DNA of 53,395 nucleotides, taken from a virus. The notes under the pieces are model-generated. The model had not been told where the DNA came from, made no database searches, and saw nothing but the letters and a program-made list of their open reading frames with translations. This document shows, piece by piece, positions 5,975-52,918 of the stretch (the first letter of the stretch is position 1; every line of letters begins with the position of its first letter). A program made the position numbers and the translations under genes. The stretch lies in the IMG/VR virus record IMGVR_UViG_3300043466_002220, positions 1-53,395 of that record; one strand, 5' to 3'.

Positions 5975-7873
5975 TTATTTTACAGCATTTACAGTATTAA
6001 TAAATTCAGATTCTGTCATATAATGAATAACACCCTTAGTGTCTTTTATTTCATATTGTAAAGAACCTCTTTTAGGATCATATTTAGGATTATATGTATT
6101 ATATTTAACTTTTAATTTATTTAATGATGGTGATTTAGATTTAAATGGTACAAATTCATTATGATTTACTGACCAATTTCTATAATTTTCTTGTAATTCG
6201 TTGTGTCTATCAACATTAATACCTACATTATCACTATTTAATCTACTTGTTTTAAATTCTTTAAACGTACCATCTTTAGTTTTAACAGTAATTACATGTG
6301 GTGAAGCTTTACTATTTGTACCATTAAATGATTGTTCTTCCCAATTTAAAGGAGATATAAATCCATGATATGTCACAGTATCTACACCGTCTAAATCATA
6401 TTTATCTTGTGCTTCTTCAAAAGATATTGGTTGACCTGTTTCAGGATCTAGTAATTTTCTAGCACCACTATTTGTAAGTCTTAATTGTTTACGCATAGTT
6501 TTATCTCTTTCATCTGCAGTTTTACCAATTGAAGAACTAAAACCACTATTATCTAACATTGTGTCAGTAGTTACTAATTTACTTGTTAATGTGATAGCAG
6601 GTGTTTCTTTTAACATTTTTACAACAAGTTGAGCATTTGTTTTATCATTTTTACCTTTTTTACGACCATCTGCATTTATAAAATGTTTTTTACCATCTGC
6701 TCCAACAACTCCTTCAGTTGTTAATTTTTTATACATATTTTCGTATAGTGCTTTTTGACGAGGATCTTTTATATCATCAACTGAAAAAGTTTTACCACCT
6801 TGTTTTATTTCTGTTGAAACAGCACCTGTTCCAGCATCTACAGGTGAAAACCCGTCACCTTCTATTTCTCCAACTTTTGTATTTGTAGTATTACCAATTC
6901 TTTCAACTTCTGAATAATCTTGAGCACTACCACCTACTTCTGCAGTATTATAATCTTCACCATAAATATCACTCATATTTAAAGTTCCTGAACCATCTCC
7001 AATAGGTGCTGCACCTTCTTCAGAACTATATTTGTTAGAAATACCTGTAGCTGTTTCCAATTGAGATAACATGTCTCCTTGAAATTGTGCTGTAAAATTT
7101 TCAGGATTAATTCCTGCTTCTTGATTAAATGAATATCCCGCACCACCTGGTGTTAACCATTTAGCACGCATTGCTGCAGTCATTTGATTAACTTGATCTA
7201 AATTAGTTTTAGTCATTTGTCTATTATTACTATCAAAAGCAGTATAACTACCATCAGCATTTTTAACTACACGACCACCACCACTTTCAATTTCAGACAT
7301 TGTACTACCTAAAATATTATTACGAGCTTGCAAATCTTTTTCATAATCTTCTGCTGCAACAATACCATAATCTCCTATATTTATAATTTTATTTTCAGCA
7401 TCATATCCTTTATAACCTGTATTTTCATCTTTTACTTTTTGTTCCCATAGTTGTGAAGCTCTGTCACTACCATATTGTTTAGTAGCATTTTCTAAAAATA
7501 AAGCTTTTTTCTTATCGTATGTTTGTTTTGCAGTATTAATTTGACCTATTCTACCTGTAGGTGCAACTAAATCATTGTAACGTCTATTTAAAGATATAAT
7601 TTTAGAAGTTACATTAGGATCGTTTACACCTGTTTTAGCTAAAGTTGCAGCATTATTATCTAATTCACTTTCAATTTCACTTTTTAATTTAATTGCTTCA
7701 TCATAGTGTACATCTAAAGGATCTACTTTAGCTAATCCTGAACGAATACCTTCTTGTTTAACTAATAAATCATCATGTTTTTTTCTCTGCATTGCAGGAA
7801 CTAACATGATTTCTTCCATTGATAAAGGATTAAATTGTGATGGTGTTAACGATGTATATCTATTTACTCCCAT
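5975..7873 (-). CDS. Virion-associated protein, probable cargo protein, 632 aa
   Basis: I do not recognise a domain. The first 170 residues look helical and charged, starting MGVNRYTSLTPSQFNPL. The middle is Gly/Ser/Thr-rich and acidic, and the C-terminal third looks like compact beta-rich sequence. The gene is packed with 2-nt gaps between the 764-aa and 1516-aa genes, so the three are probably co-transcribed and co-assembled. Similar mid-sized proteins sit next to the muzzle in crAss-like phages and travel inside the virion. This is an inference from the gene order. Confidence 0.5.
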   Translation of the reverse strand: MGVNRYTSLTPSQFNPLSMEEIMLVPAMQRKKHDDLLVKQEGIRSGLAKVDPLDVHYDEAIKLKSEIESELDNNAATLAKTGVNDPNVTSKIISLNRRYNDLVAPTGRIGQINTAKQTYDKKKALFLENATKQYGSDRASQLWEQKVKDENTGYKGYDAENKIINIGDYGIVAAEDYEKDLQARNNILGSTMSEIESGGGRVVKNADGSYTAFDSNNRQMTKTNLDQVNQMTAAMRAKWLTPGGAGYSFNQEAGINPENFTAQFQGDMLSQLETATGISNKYSSEEGAAPIGDGSGTLNMSDIYGEDYNTAEVGGSAQDYSEVERIGNTTNTKVGEIEGDGFSPVDAGTGAVSTEIKQGGKTFSVDDIKDPRQKALYENMYKKLTTEGVVGADGKKHFINADGRKKGKNDKTNAQLVVKMLKETPAITLTSKLVTTDTMLDNSGFSSSIGKTADERDKTMRKQLRLTNSGARKLLDPETGQPISFEEAQDKYDLDGVDTVTYHGFISPLNWEEQSFNGTNSKASPHVITVKTKDGTFKEFKTSRLNSDNVGINVDRHNELQENYRNWSVNHNEFVPFKSKSPSLNKLKVKYNTYNPKYDPKRGSLQYEIKDTKGVIHYMTESEFINTVNAVK

Positions 7874-43833: not shown

Positions 43834-44639
43834 ATAGTTTTTAAGTCATTCTTTCACTATTTAACACAAAGAGTGTATATCTAGTCACTTATCAAGTTTC
43901 TAAGATTAGATTAATACAGAAACTTGCAGAAAAGAACTGTAAAAATAGCTACAAAAATTAAAAACAAAAAAAGAATAATAGTAATATTATTCTTTAAATG
44001 TACCATTTCACATTCCCAAGGTGTGACTATTATAATAGGAAGATATTCTGCAAGCATGGTTAAAGCATAGGCTAATACCAATATGTAACAGCTATTATAA
44101 TAGAGTACAGAGGGTTTTTAAAAATAAAGAAGTTGTATGTTCTATTGTTTATAACAATGATGAACATTCTGGTTATGCTGAACAGCCAATAAGAATACAA
44201 ATGTGATCAGATGAGGAGATTTATCTTTACAACGTTGCGTAAATCAATTCCAATAGAACAGAGAAATGTTGTGACATATGTTATACAACCAGTGATATGA
44301 TAGAGGTGTGCTGGTTCACCGTAAACAACAAAGACAAAAAACTTAATAACTTCACAAGTCGTTGAGAACACCAAGTTTCTATAATAACATAGGTTGAGTA
44401 CCTGTAATAGCTTAGTATAAACGTATAATATACTTTGAACCTTATTACAATTATAGTTTTAGGTGTAAAATGCAAATTTATTAAACTCTATCCAATTGCA
44501 GGTTGATGGTAATGAAACAATAACGAAACTTACAGATAACGTACAGATAAGTGAACTGAAGTTATTTACCTAGACATCAAGGTGCAACCTTGTAGAGTTT
44601 ATTTTAAAACAAATTATTAACTGACTAAATAACAAAATT
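43834..44639 (+). ncRNA. Gene-free 0.8 kb region with multiple long-range inverted repeats, probable structured RNA(s)
   Basis: No gene-sized frame with a start codon is present. Perfect inverted repeats are frequent: CAAGTTTCT/AGAAACTTG (43893-43901, 43918-43926), AAGAATAATA/TATTATTCTT (43971-43980, 43985-43994), TGTTCTATTG/CAATAGAACA (44138-44147, 44251-44260), TGTAATA/TATTACA (about 44403, 44444) and TAAACTCTA/TAGAGTTTA (44482-44490, 44593-44601). The last closes a nested set (GGTAA/TTACC, ATAAC/GTTAT). This suggests two or more folded RNAs rather than spacer DNA. Strand is taken from the surrounding genes. Confidence 0.45.
43971..43994. terminator. Strong short hairpin flanked by an A-tract
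   Basis: A 10-bp perfect stem with a GTAA loop lies directly after a plus-strand A-tract and before TTTAAATG. Read on the minus strand it is followed by a T-rich run and looks like an intrinsic terminator; on the plus strand the T-run is short. It may block antisense transcription coming from the right. Confidence 0.5.
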
Positions 44640-47324: not shown

Positions 47325-47987
47325 ATGAAAAAATTATTATTGTTATCAGTAATGTTATTAAGTTTAACAAGCTGTTCAAAAGATGAGGTTGATAATACAC
47401 CTCCAAAAGTATTAGTAATTGGTAATTCAATTACACAATGTGCTCCTGGTGGAGAATGGTTAGGTAACTGGGGAATGGCTGCATCATCACCTGATAAAGA
47501 TTTTTGTAGTCTATTAAAAACAGAACTACAAACTGATGTATTAAATAGAAAAAACATTGCTGTTTGGGAAAACAATTTTAATGTTGGTGTAGAACATTAT
47601 GGAATTACAACATCTTTACAATATGATTATGTTGTAATTAAAGTTGGTGAAAACGTAAGTGATGTTTGTAATTTTAAAGATGCATTAAAAAAACTTGTAA
47701 ACTATTATAAAAAATATGGTAATAATATTATATTAGTAACAACAGTTTGGTCACAATATCAATTTGATTCTAGTGGAAATCCTTATGAAGTCATATCAAT
47801 AAAAGATAAAATAATAAGAGAAGTCTCAATTGAAAACAAATGTATATTAGTAGATCTTTTAGAAATGAAATCTGATCCGACCAATTATGCTTGGGGAGAA
47901 TATCAAAATAGTGGTATTGCTTCACATCCAAACGATAAAGGAATGAAATTTATATCAGATAAAATATTATTTGAAATAAGAAATTAA
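47325..47987 (+). CDS. SGNH-hydrolase-like lipoprotein, 220 aa
   Basis: A lipoprotein signal (MKKLLLLSVMLLSLTSC, Cys17) precedes a domain with SGNH/GDSL blocks: VIGNSITQ with the nucleophile Ser35, VGENVSD (Gly and Asn of block III, Asn110) and SHPNDKG with His201. Members of the family are esterases or deacetylases acting on sugars, lipids or O-acetyl groups. The lipid anchor would place it in the periplasm or on the outer membrane of the host, so it may change a surface glycan or protect from superinfection. The Asp that normally precedes His by two residues is not obvious (IASH), so activity should be checked. Confidence 0.8.
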   Translation: MKKLLLLSVMLLSLTSCSKDEVDNTPPKVLVIGNSITQCAPGGEWLGNWGMAASSPDKDFCSLLKTELQTDVLNRKNIAVWENNFNVGVEHYGITTSLQYDYVVIKVGENVSDVCNFKDALKKLVNYYKKYGNNIILVTTVWSQYQFDSSGNPYEVISIKDKIIREVSIENKCILVDLLEMKSDPTNYAWGEYQNSGIASHPNDKGMKFISDKILFEIRN

Positions 47988-47992
47988 AAATT

Positions 47993-48186
47993 AAATCACT
48001 TGCTTGAAGATAAACAATAATAATGTCCGTCACTGGATAACTCTCATGGATAGAGATTTAGGTTCGATTCCTAATATTATAAACTGTACTAGCAGTTGTG
48101 TTTATTGTAAAGAATAGTTCGGCATCATTTATCTGAAATGTACAATGACTGATATACTATTTCTACTAGATATGGACAAGTGATTT
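47993..48186 (+). ncRNA. Structured RNA unit 1, about 194 nt, closed by a 10-bp helix
   Basis: AAATCACTTG (47993-48002) pairs with CAAGTGATTT (48177-48186). Inside are the boxes TGAAGATAAA (48005-48014), TTTATTGTAA (48101-48110), TGAAATG (48134-48140) and ATGGACAAGT (48173-48182), shared in order with unit 2. GATAAA can pair with TTTATT as a second helix. The interval also contains a tRNA-like element (48016-48082). No open frame is present. This is probably one structured RNA; the covariation of the closing helix with unit 2 is the main support. Confidence 0.65.
48016..48082 (+). tRNA. Degenerate tRNA-like element inside RNA unit 1
   Basis: A consensus T-arm (TTAGG, loop TTCGATT, CCTAA, 48058-48074) follows a possible anticodon stem CTCT/AGAG with a 7-nt loop CATGGAT. 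The acceptor strands AATAATA (48016-48022) and TATTATA (48075-48081) pair at six of seven positions. The D-loop has only six bases without GG in the loop, the variable region is one base, and U33 is missing. This may be a decayed tRNA or a tRNA mimic forming part of the larger RNA. Confidence 0.4.
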
Positions 48187-48196
48187 TTTAAAAGTT

Positions 48197-48380
48197 AAAC
48201 TACTTACTGAAGATAAATAGTTTCTGGCAGTGCAAGTATACTTGTAGTTAGGAGAGAAATAATCATGCTAAGATGATGTTATTTATTGTAAGATATGAAA
48301 TGCTTATAATTGACTAGCGTACAAGATACGTGGGAGTCTGTAAGTGAGTAATATTCCACTTAGAAATGGATAAGTAGTTT
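48197..48380 (+). ncRNA. Structured RNA unit 2, about 184 nt, paralogue of unit 1
   Basis: AAACTACTTA (48197-48206) pairs with TAAGTAGTTT (48371-48380). The same four boxes as in unit 1 occur in the same order: TGAAGATAAA (48208-48217), TTTATTGTAA (48282-48291), TGAAATG (about 48296) and ATGGATAAGT (about 48367). The middle differs: instead of a tRNA-like element it has an inverted repeat AAGTATACTT. Unit 2 starts 11 nt after unit 1 ends. The T-run after the closing helix is weak. Confidence 0.65.
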
Positions 48381-48656
48381 TTAATATCAGTACTCCCTAA
48401 GTCAAAACAATGTACATTGTTGGAAGTTTAATGACAAGCCAAGACTGTCTGTAAGGGGAAATCAGTAGGTAATTTGATTATTATTTGTGAATAATGTAGT
48501 TCTCAGTGCCCCTTTGTGGTTATAGTAATTACTATTCACTAACCTACCTTCTGAGGGTTATATGAGGATTGTATCTATACGATCATAGAGAAGAAGGAAA
48601 TAGTAATAGCTAAGCTGTGTATAAGCCCAAGATTGTAAAATCTACTAGAAGCTAGG
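48381..48656 (+). ncRNA. Gene-free segment with nested inverted repeats
   Basis: No gene-sized frame is present. AAGGGG (about 48453) pairs with CCCCTT (about 48508) and GTAGGT (about 48465) with ACCTAC (about 48542), so the two helices overlap in a pseudoknot-like order. A palindrome TAGTAATTACTA lies at about 48523 and a hairpin TTATTATTTGTGAATAAT near 48477. This segment adjoins tRNA-Ser and may belong to the same large RNA. Confidence 0.4.
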
Positions 48657-48765
48657 GATTAGATGACAGAAATGGAATAATGTACTCTATTTAACTAGAT
48701 GGTATTGTTTGGAAACAATTAATCAGGTAGTCGCTACCATATGGGTTCGAATCCCATTCTAATCT
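48657..48765 (+). tRNA. tRNA-Ser (anticodon GGA) with an inserted hairpin
   Basis: The acceptor strands GATTAGA (48657-48663) and TCTAATC (48758-48764) pair perfectly. The anticodon arm ATTGT-TTGGAAA-ACAAT has a canonical 7-nt loop with U33 and anticodon GGA, which reads UCC/UCU. A long variable arm (GGTAG, TCG, CTACC) and a T-arm (ATGGG, TTCGAAT, CCCAT) follow, as expected for a class II tRNA-Ser. Between the D-arm (ACA/TGT) and anticodon arm there is an extra segment of about 20 nt with a TCTA/TAGA hairpin, so the gene is 109 nt instead of about 88. Confidence 0.65.
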
Positions 48766-49337
48766 CAAAAAGGCTAAACATTGAACCTTTGTAAATTTGT
48801 GTCAGTTAAACCACTATCCTAATTAAGGATTATTTCTTGAAACTGAATAAATGGTAGGTAATAAAGATTCTACAAATTTACATAAAGATACTAATCCTGA
48901 ATTGACAGGATGTAATAACTCAGAATATAAACACTGATATGTATTTCCTTAAATACCTCAATTAGATATTCTAATTAGAGGAAAGCAGCTAGGGTGTTAT
49001 TACACAGTAATGTTAGATGTGTTGTTCCCTTGAGAAAGGAATCAATGGAGTAAGAGAGTGATTAACAAAAGAAAAAGCACTACAACACAAATGAGTTCTC
49101 AGCAAGTAATTAGATTGAAGCTTTAATCGTGAGTATTTATATGAAGGTTGTAGTGTAAAAGACTACATTAAAGAACTTCTGTAACAAGAAATTGGTAAAT
49201 ATATTTTAATTACATGACCTTACTCTTATATAAGCTTACGCAGAAATGTTGTAGTAATATAAGACAAGAGGGTGCTAATCATTAAAGTTTATGATAAACT
49301 CATAAAACAGTTTCACACTTCTGTAAAAAGTGTATTT
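48766..49337 (+). ncRNA. Gene-free segment with further long inverted repeats
   Basis: No gene-sized frame. TGTAAATTTGT (48790-48800) pairs with ACAAATTTACA (48872-48882), enclosing TCAGTT/AACTGA and ACCACTA/TGGTAG elements. TCCTG/CAGGA (about 48896) is a small hairpin. CACTACAAC (49078-49086) pairs with GTTGTAGTG (49147-49155), and TCTTATAT (about 49223) with ATATAAGA. ACACTT/AAGTGT (about 49316) lies just upstream of tRNA-Met. The density of such helices argues for transcribed structured RNA. Confidence 0.4.
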
Positions 49338-49411
49338 GTTTACATAGCTCAGTTGGTTAGAGCACCTGACTCATAATTAGGCGGTCATAGGTTCGAGTCC
49401 TATTGTAGACA
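49338..49411 (+). tRNA. tRNA-Met (anticodon CAT)
   Basis: A complete canonical cloverleaf: acceptor GTTTACA/TGTAGAC, D-arm GCTC..GAGC with TTGG in the loop, anticodon arm CCTGA-CTCATAA-TTAGG (anticodon CAT), variable loop CGGTC, T-arm ATAGG-TTCGAGT-CCTAT. The first acceptor pair is G-C, not the mismatch of initiator tRNA, so an elongator tRNA-Met is favoured; a tRNA-Ile with modified CAU is possible. The 3' CCA is not encoded. Confidence 0.95.
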
Positions 49412-49434
49412 CAAATTAACTAAAATTATATATT

Positions 49435-50523: not shown

Positions 50524-51183
50524 ATGAAAAAAATCGTATTTTTATTGTTAGCAACAACATCAATGATGTTTGCACAATCAGGTTCAGAATTAGTAAAAAC
50601 TACTGAAAAAGTAAAAGAATTGACTGAAAAAGGTCTTTCAAATGTTAATAATGTTTCTATAAATGTAAAAGAAGCATCTAATAATACAAAAGAGTTGGTT
50701 AAAACTACCTCTAATGCTGTAGGAACAGCTTATCAAGATGGTAAATCGGCAACAAGTACACTTTATCAAGATGGTAAAGAGTTAACTAAACAACTTTATG
50801 GTGATAGTAAATTACTTGGTAGTAAATTAGAAGACGCTTTAACATATGCTGCTGAAGGTCTTAAAACTACATCTATAAAAGCTTGGGAAATATTAGTTAA
50901 ACAACAATTAGTTTGGTCATATTGTTTCTTATTTCTAACATTGTTATCATTATACTCTATTTATAGATTTTTTAATCAATGGAAAATTATGAATAATGAT
51001 TTAGATGAATCAGGAGATATTAAACAGTCACATATTGCATTAACTTTTGTATTAGGTGTTATTGCTACAATGTCATCATTGGCTTCAGGTATTAATTTTG
51101 AACAAATGATTACAGGTTTTGTTAATCCTGAATTTGGAGCATTGAGAACATTGGTTGAAATCATCCAACAAAATATTAGATAA
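50524..51183 (+). CDS. Exported coiled-coil membrane protein, 219 aa
   Basis: A signal peptide (MKKIVFLLLATTSMMFAQS, cleavage after Ala17 likely) is followed by a long helical region (about 20-115) of Thr/Ser/Lys-rich heptads containing a repeat, AYQDGKSATSTLYQDGKELT. Two hydrophobic segments lie near 130-150 and 172-190. The C-terminal part looks conserved (INFEQMITGFVNPEFGALRT). It precedes two further genes by 2 nt and overlap, so a membrane complex is likely. No family recognised. Confidence 0.65.
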   Translation: MKKIVFLLLATTSMMFAQSGSELVKTTEKVKELTEKGLSNVNNVSINVKEASNNTKELVKTTSNAVGTAYQDGKSATSTLYQDGKELTKQLYGDSKLLGSKLEDALTYAAEGLKTTSIKAWEILVKQQLVWSYCFLFLTLLSLYSIYRFFNQWKIMNNDLDESGDIKQSHIALTFVLGVIATMSSLASGINFEQMITGFVNPEFGALRTLVEIIQQNIR

Positions 51184-51185
51184 TT

Positions 51186-51992
51186 ATGAGTGTTGCTAAA
51201 ACAAGTCTTTTATTAGATAAACTATCTAAAAAAGAAAAAGTAGAACAATCTAAAGATAAAAGTTCTTCAGATACATTATTGTTATTAGCAGACAATAGTA
51301 AATCTAAAGAAATTGAAATTCTTAAAACTATTGGTTTAGATTATCATATTAAAGAAGTTGAAAAAATTAAAAATGATTCATCTAGAATTCAAATTATTGA
51401 AAGTACATATAATCGTCCTGTTTATACAGGTCAGCAGATTAAAAAATTATGTAATCAATATGGTTTAAGAATTCTTAGAGCAGATTCATTTAAAGCTAAG
51501 ACACCAACATTTGTAGGTGAAGAAATTTTAAAATTTGTTGCTGAAAATAGTAAAGAAGTTGTTGCAAATGAAGAAACAGGTAGAACAAGAACTGTATCTG
51601 AATTACATATAGGTGAATCTTCATTCTTTATTTTATCAACAAACAGATCATTTAATGGTGAATCTTTAGAATCTGCAACATTATTTTATAGAGAAAAACG
51701 TGAATATCAAAATTATCATAATGCTGGAGAAGAAAATATATTTGTAGAAATATGTTCTTGGGGTAAATCATTTGATAATTCATTGACTAATATTGTTGAC
51801 TTTACTTTATGTAGTGAAGATAGAGGTTCTTGGATTATCATACCAATGATTCTTTGTTTAATTTCACTAATTGTTTCATTATTCATAGATCAAAATATGA
51901 ATTATTTATTTTTAACAGGATTTATCCTTTCAACAGTTGTAATGTTAGTAAGTGATAGTTCACAATATTTTAAATCATGGACTTCAAATTAA
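51186..51992 (+). CDS. Protein with soluble domain and C-terminal membrane hairpin, 268 aa
   Basis: The first 200 residues are soluble and mixed alpha/beta, starting MSVAKTSLLLDKLSKKEKVE with a Lys/Ser-rich linker and then IQIIESTYNRPVYTGQQIKK and LHIGESSFFILSTNRSF. Two membrane segments follow (WIIIPMILCLISLIVSLFI, YLFLTGFILSTVVMLVS) near 216-260. It overlaps the next gene by 16 nt and lies 2 nt after the exported coiled-coil gene. Function unknown. Confidence 0.65.
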   Translation: MSVAKTSLLLDKLSKKEKVEQSKDKSSSDTLLLLADNSKSKEIEILKTIGLDYHIKEVEKIKNDSSRIQIIESTYNRPVYTGQQIKKLCNQYGLRILRADSFKAKTPTFVGEEILKFVAENSKEVVANEETGRTRTVSELHIGESSFFILSTNRSFNGESLESATLFYREKREYQNYHNAGEENIFVEICSWGKSFDNSLTNIVDFTLCSEDRGSWIIIPMILCLISLIVSLFIDQNMNYLFLTGFILSTVVMLVSDSSQYFKSWTSN

Positions 51993-52276
51993 GATTAAAA
52001 TCAATAGGAATATTATTTCTAATTTACGCACTGTTTACGTGTATTAACTGGTACACTAACTTAAAACAAGTTAGAATGTATGAAGAAATAGATAAAAGAG
52101 AATTAACAGAATTAGAAATTAACAAATATATTGTAAAACCTAATAAAAGAAAAGATTATTATCTTATTAGACAATCTGATTATTTTGGTAAAAATTCATT
52201 AATACCTTTTATTGTAAATAAAAAATTAATAAAAAAACATCCTGATAAAATTATTGAAAAAGATTGTGGGTGTTAA
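51977..52276 (+). CDS. Membrane-anchored small protein, 99 aa
   Basis: Starts MDFKLRLKSIGILFLIYALF, a single N-terminal membrane anchor, followed by a basic and acidic exported or cytoplasmic part (ELTELEINKYIVKPNKRKDY) ending in CGC. It overlaps the upstream gene by 16 nt, so it probably works with it. No motif recognised. Confidence 0.6.
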   Translation: MDFKLRLKSIGILFLIYALFTCINWYTNLKQVRMYEEIDKRELTELEINKYIVKPNKRKDYYLIRQSDYFGKNSLIPFIVNKKLIKKHPDKIIEKDCGC

Positions 52277-52372
52277 AACTTTTATAGAAACCACCGCCTT
52301 CAATAGTGGATCGTCGTTTAACTAGAGCATGCTGAATATCAGAGGGAAGAGAACCCATAGTTAATGGTTATA

Positions 52373-52442
52373 ATCTGAGTCATCTAACGGGTAAGACCTC
52401 AACACGGGTTGAGTAATGAGGGTTCGAGCCCCTTCTCAGGTT
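52373..52442 (+). tRNA. tRNA-like element with abnormal anticodon loop
   Basis: Acceptor strands ATCTGAG (52373-52379) and CTCAGGT (52435-52441) pair at all seven positions (one G-U). A T-arm GAGGG-TTCGAGC-CCCTT and a short D-arm (TCT/AGA, loop with GGG) are present. The anticodon stem CTCAA/TTGAG is perfect but the loop is CACGGG, six bases without U33, so no valid anticodon is seen. Without a proper loop this is a decayed tRNA or a mimic. Upstream, 52277-52372 holds no gene but has a possible D-arm-like string (AGTTAATGGTTATAA). Confidence 0.45.
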
Positions 52443-52483
52443 CAAATACAAAGTTCATAATATTGTATTTAATAGTTAGTGGG

Positions 52484-52541
52484 TAAATGTGAGTGAAAAT
52501 ATGTAACTGCGAAATCAGATATGTAAAGTAACTCACATTTA
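52484..52541 (+). ncRNA. Small RNA hairpin or terminator with 11-bp stem
   Basis: TAAATGTGAGT (52484-52494) pairs with ACTCACATTTA (52531-52541) around a 36-nt loop that holds CTG/CAG and two copies of ATATGTAA. A T-run (TTTTT) follows at once, so it can end transcription from the tRNA-like region. The large loop is unusual for a terminator. Confidence 0.55.
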
Positions 52542-52570
52542 TTTTTATTAATCCTAAAAAAGAAATAATT

Positions 52571-52918
52571 ATGAAAATAATATGTTTTATATATTTTTTA
52601 TGTATATCATATACATCAGAAAATATAACAACTGTATCATTTTATAGTGATAAACATCATGGTAAAAATACAGCATCAGGTGAAAAGTTTAATATGAATA
52701 GTTTAACTGCTGCTCATAGAACATTACCATTTGGTACATTAGTAGAAATTACTAATTTAAATAACAGTCAGTCAGTTATTGTTAGAATTAACGATAGAGG
52801 ACCTTTTATTAAAGGTAGAAAATTTGATTTATCTAAAGCAGCATTTAAACAAATATGTCCATTAAGATATGGTAAAATTAAAGTTAAATATAAAATTATA
52901 ACAAATGAGAAACAATAA
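52571..52918 (+). CDS. RlpA-like septal/cell-wall protein (double-psi beta-barrel), 115 aa
   Basis: A signal segment ([17 protein letters not shown]) is followed by the RlpA pattern: [60 protein letters not shown]. The double-psi beta-barrel of RlpA acts on peptidoglycan glycan strands in bacteria; the key His and Asp-Arg-Gly region are kept. The protein lacks the C-terminal SPOR domain and is smaller than bacterial RlpA. In the plus-strand (early-type) arm, it may loosen the wall for entry or protect the host wall rather than cause lysis. The next frame overlaps its stop. Confidence 0.88.

Follow-up and report, generated by a model that had tools for sequence, protein, structure and literature searches.

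Two adjacent units in a crAss-like phage, unit 1 (type A, 47993-48186) and unit 2 (type B, 48197-48380), are almost certainly structured RNAs, paralogues that belong to a new non-coding RNA family of phages. We consider it probable, with reservations, that the family is built as a kissing-loop core that acts as a scaffold for swappable domains; the scaffold is inferred, and there are no transcript data. A sequence-only reading of this DNA had placed both units and their perfect 10-bp closing helices at exactly these positions. That account is not wrong but incomplete: the pseudoknot, the variable cassettes, and element C further downstream are absent from it.

The window, meaning the whole 53-kb stretch of DNA that was analysed (53,395 nucleotides), is a phage fragment whose large terminase matches family phrog_6681 and whose closest annotated relatives are crAss-like phages at ~42% identity. 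Both units and two tRNAs sit in a gene-free stretch of 1.4 kb (47988-49434), in which every mapped part is on the plus strand. Directly upstream of unit 1 is a gene for a GDSL-like lipase or acylhydrolase (47325-47987, just below the Pfam cut-off) with a signal-peptide-like start. Another gene-poor stretch, 43950-44610, is only 88% identical, with gaps, to a strain that is otherwise ~99% identical nearby, and may hold further RNAs.

Fold and covariation of units A and B

The core of both types follows the order P1 (8 to 13 bp), UGAA, P2, the P2b hairpin, GUAA, P3 (the closing helix of variable domain V2), the P4 hairpin, and the second strand of P1. Variable domain V1 enters at a port inside P2, and V2 at a port between P2 and P4. 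In unit 1, P1 pairs AAATCACTTG (47993-48002) with CAAGTGATTT (48177-48186). Between these strands lie the conserved box TGAA with the 5' strand of P2 (GATAAACA, 48005-48016), V1 (48017-48080), which contains the tRNA T-arm-like hairpin TTAGG-TTCGATT-CCTAA, the P2b hairpin (48081-48097; loop UACUAG, kissing strand CUAG), the 3' strand of P2 (TGTTTATT) with GTAA (48099-48110), V2 (48111-48161), whose own closing helix AATAGT/ACTATT is visible in the sequence, and the P4 hairpin TCTA-CTAGATA-TGGA (48162-48176; kissing strand CUAG). Unit 2 is closed by AAACTACTTA (48197-48206) and TAAGTAGTTT (48371-48380), which enclose TGAA with the 5' strand of P2 (GATAAATA, 48208-48219), V1 (48220-48260), the P2b hairpin ATCAT-GCTAAG-ATGAT (48261-48277; kissing strand CUAAG), the 3' strand of P2 (TATTTATT) with GTAA (48280-48291), V2 (48292-48353), and the P4 hairpin TCCA-CTTAGAAA-TGGA (48354-48370; kissing strand CUUAG). 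Borders of the V domains are approximate. Unit 1 is supported by its perfect helix and by covariance models, and unit 2 by these and by covariation.

Four words had been reported as shared by the two units. Three of them, TGAAGATAAA, TTTATTGTAA, and ATGGAYAAGT, are homologous, while TGAAATG is a chance match because it falls in V2, and a near-identical strain has a different V2 in unit 2. The spacing from the 5' strand to the boxes, which had been given as equal, also differs slightly (linker CT in unit 1, C in unit 2).

The closing helices alone are only moderately unusual, since two 10-bp inverted repeats 150 to 210 nt apart were found in 47988-49434 compared to a mean of 0.22 and a maximum of 4 in 300 shuffles. 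Folding energy was not significant on its own for either unit (z = -1.56 and -1.68). The proof of a structured RNA is instead comparative: models that exclude their target still find it, and covariation is far above that of shuffles. Type-B model R1, built without unit 1, recovered unit 1 (E = 5.6e-6), and type-A model R3, from which both window units were excluded, found the two of them (E = 2.5e-9 for unit 1, 1.3e-4 for unit 2), although E-values from such home-made covariance models are rough. The covariance model of each type thus finds the other type in the window, and on this sequence evidence A and B are homologous.

Of the proposed-pair cells in 19 type-B sequences, 98.1% form, and sliding the 3' partners by 1 to 3 columns cuts pairing to ~40%. 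Among the 36 pairs, 23 show double changes, which amount to 128 cells versus 36 in shuffles, and none of 500 shuffles reached 128. Both sides change in all 10 pairs of P1, which has many different sequences in type B, in all 5 of P2b, and in all 4 of P3. The sequence-only reading had proposed paralogous structured RNAs with compensatory changes and had set the existence of homologues with covarying pairs in related phages as a test; the cross-finding models and the covariation above shuffles bear out the proposal, and the changes in P1, P2b, and P3 pass the test. Two alignments were left out of the counts, A1 (joint A/B, in which A and B are one apart in register) and A3 (P4 rows misaligned), and a third, A5, in which two sequences were shortened by hand to ease alignment, contributes to no result. 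Model R2 has three mis-set pairs in an invariant stretch, and the covariation counts are independent of it.

A kissing-loop pseudoknot joins the loops of P2b and P4. It is paired in 19 of 19 type-B sequences, with exchange of UA for CG, and the two loops are complementary in nearly every unit in several covarying codes (CUAAG/CUUAG, CCAAG/CUUGG, CUAG/CUAG, UCAG/CUGA, UUCAG/CUGAA, and GUUAG/CUAAC). In cultured isolates, the loops read by eye are UAUCAG/CUGAUA (phi17:2) and UAUCA/UGAUA (phi14:2). The window units use CUAG:CUAG (A) and CUAAG:CUUAG (B) and therefore would not cross-pair perfectly; the kissing loop could be purely intramolecular, and there are no data on oligomers. One pair of P2 is an invariant G-U in all 19 type-B sequences, which fits RNA rather than DNA.

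Relatives, carriers, and neighbouring elements

Relatives were sought by scanning IMG/VR with a pattern made from two of the shared words, which gave 116 stretches. Matches were filtered by requiring a perfect closing helix adjoining the boxes, and further units were added by scans with 3' motifs. Approximately 45 distinct units were recovered, from IMG/VR contigs and from the cultured Cellulophaga phages phi14:2, phi17:2, and phi4:1. Most of the first 116 matches, and of 71 matches in genome contigs, were chance or coding; among genome contigs only L167, a tRNA-crowded 3-kb MAG contig, survived the filter. Weak matches in Lak phages, LR756504, and Tenacibaculum phage PTm1 are unsupported. These DNA patterns worked where protein searches with neighbouring genes recovered only two near-identical strains, and a BLAST search of the whole region against phages matched mainly the tRNA-Met.

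A crAss-type terminase is encoded by 34 of 50 contigs (49 large contigs and the window), and several jumbo-sized contigs (271 to 369 kb) lack one. In one contig (G023, that of locus L102), TGA occurs ten times in frame within the terminase frame at 50789-52705 and therefore probably codes for an amino acid in this phage. Among the cultured carriers, all isolated on Cellulophaga baltica, phi14:2 (Crassvirales) has A and C, and phi17:2 and phi4:1 (Lightbulbvirus) have A. Short hypothetical proteins annotated over the elements of these three phages (L322, 1287-1570 and 2915-3360; L326/L327, ~1425-1620) are probably not genes. Across the loci, 105 of 106 element anchors lie outside ORFs of at least 100 aa, compared to half of random points. 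A tRNA is found within 2.5 kb of 37 of the 106 elements (35%) versus 25% of random points at the same loci, a mild enrichment only; in all 37 cases the nearest such tRNA is on the strand of the element. Among neighbouring proteins there is no widespread partner: the largest cluster is present at 21 of ~100 loci and lacks a Pfam match.

Downstream of unit 2, region D (48381-48604) is probably a further structured RNA whose structure is untested. Comparison of strains shows that its inner part (~48493-48533) is replaced in strain L001. Within D, AAGGGG/CCCCTT and GTAGGT/ACCTAC could pair as a pseudoknot. It is followed by a small hairpin element, d1 (48605-48653), a tRNA (48657-48765), element C (48768-49278), and a tRNA-Met (CAT; 49338-49412) found by both Rfam and ARAGORN. 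The first tRNA was detected by Rfam (RF00005) and missed by ARAGORN; read by eye, it seems to be a tRNA-Ser (GGA) in which an additional hairpin separates the D-arm from the anticodon arm. In several other loci the 5' word of d1 precedes element C by ~54 nt, and in the window the tRNA intervenes.

Element C is a second RNA with six conserved boxes in fixed order and variable inserts between them. Its most conserved word matches 94 stretches; of the stretches examined, nearly all carry other boxes on either side of it. Its core covaries (46 double changes versus 11.5), and its loop-loop complementarity UGAGAA/UUCUCA is conserved. As judged from sequence, C follows the same plan as A and B. Two C elements stand in tandem, 341 nt apart, in L266, L279, and L317. 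In L124, element C is interrupted at ~6740-7400 by an insert between GAGTTCTCA and a repeat of GAGTTCTCA. The insert encodes an HNH_3 endonuclease of 161 aa (6826-7311) and matches no Rfam intron model. HNH endonuclease inserts favour conserved functional sequences. Element C is present in 9 of 25 large A/B contigs, and A or B in 5 of 24 C contigs; as the three are not always together, they do not form an obligate complex. Contigs may be fragments and weak members were also missed, so absences mean little.

No known family accounts for these elements. The sequence-only reading had recognised none, in agreement with Rfam 15, which yields only tRNAs at its curated threshold and, at E values up to 5, only tRNAs and spurious weak matches, without a riboswitch, ribozyme, or intron. 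The Rfam models for group I and group II introns and those for GOLLD and ROOL also fail to match. Searches with ARAGORN and RF00005 found no full tRNA cloverleaf inside A or B, only the tRNAs at 48657-48765 and 49338-49412. Searches of the open literature, whose coverage excluded most subscription papers, turned up no account of the elements.

Variable domains and cassette exchange

V1 and V2 are mostly ~40 to 150 nt each, and no sequence is common to them across the family. Two contigs, L001 and L002, match the window at ~98 to 99% in the surrounding blocks, and the inner sites are wholly replaced, namely V2 of unit 2 in both strains, the inner part of region D in L001, and 48911-49007 of element C in L002. 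The flanking core bases are almost identical around the replaced sites. Cassettes are shared at the same site by 33 pairs of elements, a count of pairs and not of independent events. All compared sites agree in a single pair, which comes from two near-identical strains; the remaining pairs are either mosaic or could be compared at just one site. Cassettes recur at a different site in two cases. By eye, phi14:2 and phi17:2, which infect the same host species, have similar V1 domains and do not share V2. We conclude that the V domains are, with high probability, exchangeable and swapped whole. This sharing among elements is mosaic as far as sequence comparison can tell. To our knowledge, a conserved core next to wholesale exchange of cassettes is unusual for a non-coding RNA, and the combination suggests selection for variety.

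Proposed function and rival explanations

In the mechanism we propose, the RNA would be transcribed together with the neighbouring tRNAs. The core would form a rigid scaffold, either of RNA only or bound by protein, that displays or encloses the V domains, which would do the specific work and would owe their diversity to recombination at the conserved boxes of the core. All of these steps are inferred. A scaffold function taken by itself rests on analogy and is a tentative suggestion that we would not be surprised to see fail.

The analogy is with GOLLD and ROOL, RNAs that form homo-oligomeric cages around variable linkers, which in GOLLD sometimes hold tRNAs (PMC12286853). GOLLD is likewise a phage RNA often near tRNA islands, with kissing loops and a conserved beside a less conserved part (Nature 2025, PMC12286853), and the elements meet its phage origin and nearby tRNA genes (37 of 106 within 2.5 kb). 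Unlike the ~190-nt A and B units with several variable ports each, it is often >800 nt and forms a homo-oligomeric nanocage, which for A and B would be conjecture. ROOL, also from phages and frequently close to tRNA islands, has a complex pseudoknotted structure, an unresolved variable linker, and no known protein partner (PMC12286853), yet it is ~659 nt in one piece with a solved homo-oligomeric nanocage, and the elements match neither its sequence nor its structure. Because the elements fail the Rfam test for both families, our claim is limited to their possibly working alike; they would do so as phage RNAs at tRNA islands with kissing loops and variable linkers, without demonstrated kinship. 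A further parallel is the fold of the purine riboswitch, a three-way junction with kissing loops: the elements likewise have a multi-way junction locked by a loop-loop interaction, but they differ in sequence, size, and context and match no such model in Rfam.

The main rival is that the elements are counter-defence decoys, with V domains that mimic parts of tRNAs or host RNAs and absorb tRNA-cleaving or RNA-sensing defences, so that an arms race drives cassette turnover. Whole-domain swaps between near-identical phages fit such diversifying selection, and the V domains contain some tRNA-like pieces. Perfect T-arm-like hairpins occur in 9 of 287 V segments compared to 0.54 in shuffles (maximum 3 in 200), and none occurs on the reverse strand; BLAST of V segments against tRNAs gave 7 sense matches, 2 antisense, and 0 to 2 when shuffled; and V1 of phi14:2 and phi17:2 resembles a tRNA D-arm by eye. 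However, ~97% of cassettes lack a T-arm, tRNA pieces may be acquired merely because tRNA genes adjoin, no known defence gene lies beside the window units, and no partner gene is widespread across the loci, which leaves a decoy role unlikely. Reading V1 and V2 as a permuted or split tRNA, prompted by L138 and L063, was rejected, since most cassettes have no tRNA parts.

Still less probable is a regulatory or catalytic RNA, such as a riboswitch, self-cleaving ribozyme, or intron-like element, that acts on the adjacent tRNA transcript, for example in its processing. The compact junction, the conserved unpaired UGAA and GUAA, and the pseudoknot are as in many ribozymes, and the strand is always that of the nearest tRNA where one is near. 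Against this reading, no riboswitch, ribozyme, or intron model of Rfam matched even with E relaxed to 5, and phages differ in how they arrange A, B, and C, which is unlike a cis-regulator. Finally, the stretches could be DNA-level elements whose single-strand hairpins mark places where mobile cassettes recombine or insert, without any RNA function. Cassettes do move between phages, twice between sites, and the endonuclease insert interrupts element C in L124, but the invariant G-U pair, the covarying kissing loop, the conserved unpaired core words, the strand agreement with tRNAs, and the sense-only T-arms favour RNA, and we give this possibility very little weight.

A modular RNA scaffold remains our preferred reading. 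Extended to the phages at large, it would mean that several large-phage lineages carry modular scaffold RNAs A, B, and C, whose rigid kissing-loop cores hold interchangeable domains taken from one common pool, so that cassettes would yield varied RNA effectors with no need of protein; this we offer as a conjecture with a real but uncertain chance of being right. The family itself occurs in dozens of large phages, cultured ones included, and adds structured RNAs to phage regions annotated as empty or as spurious small proteins. Since Cellulophaga baltica is the isolation host of phi14:2, phi17:2, and phi4:1, the role of large-phage RNAs near tRNA islands is testable on units of 190 to 300 nt.
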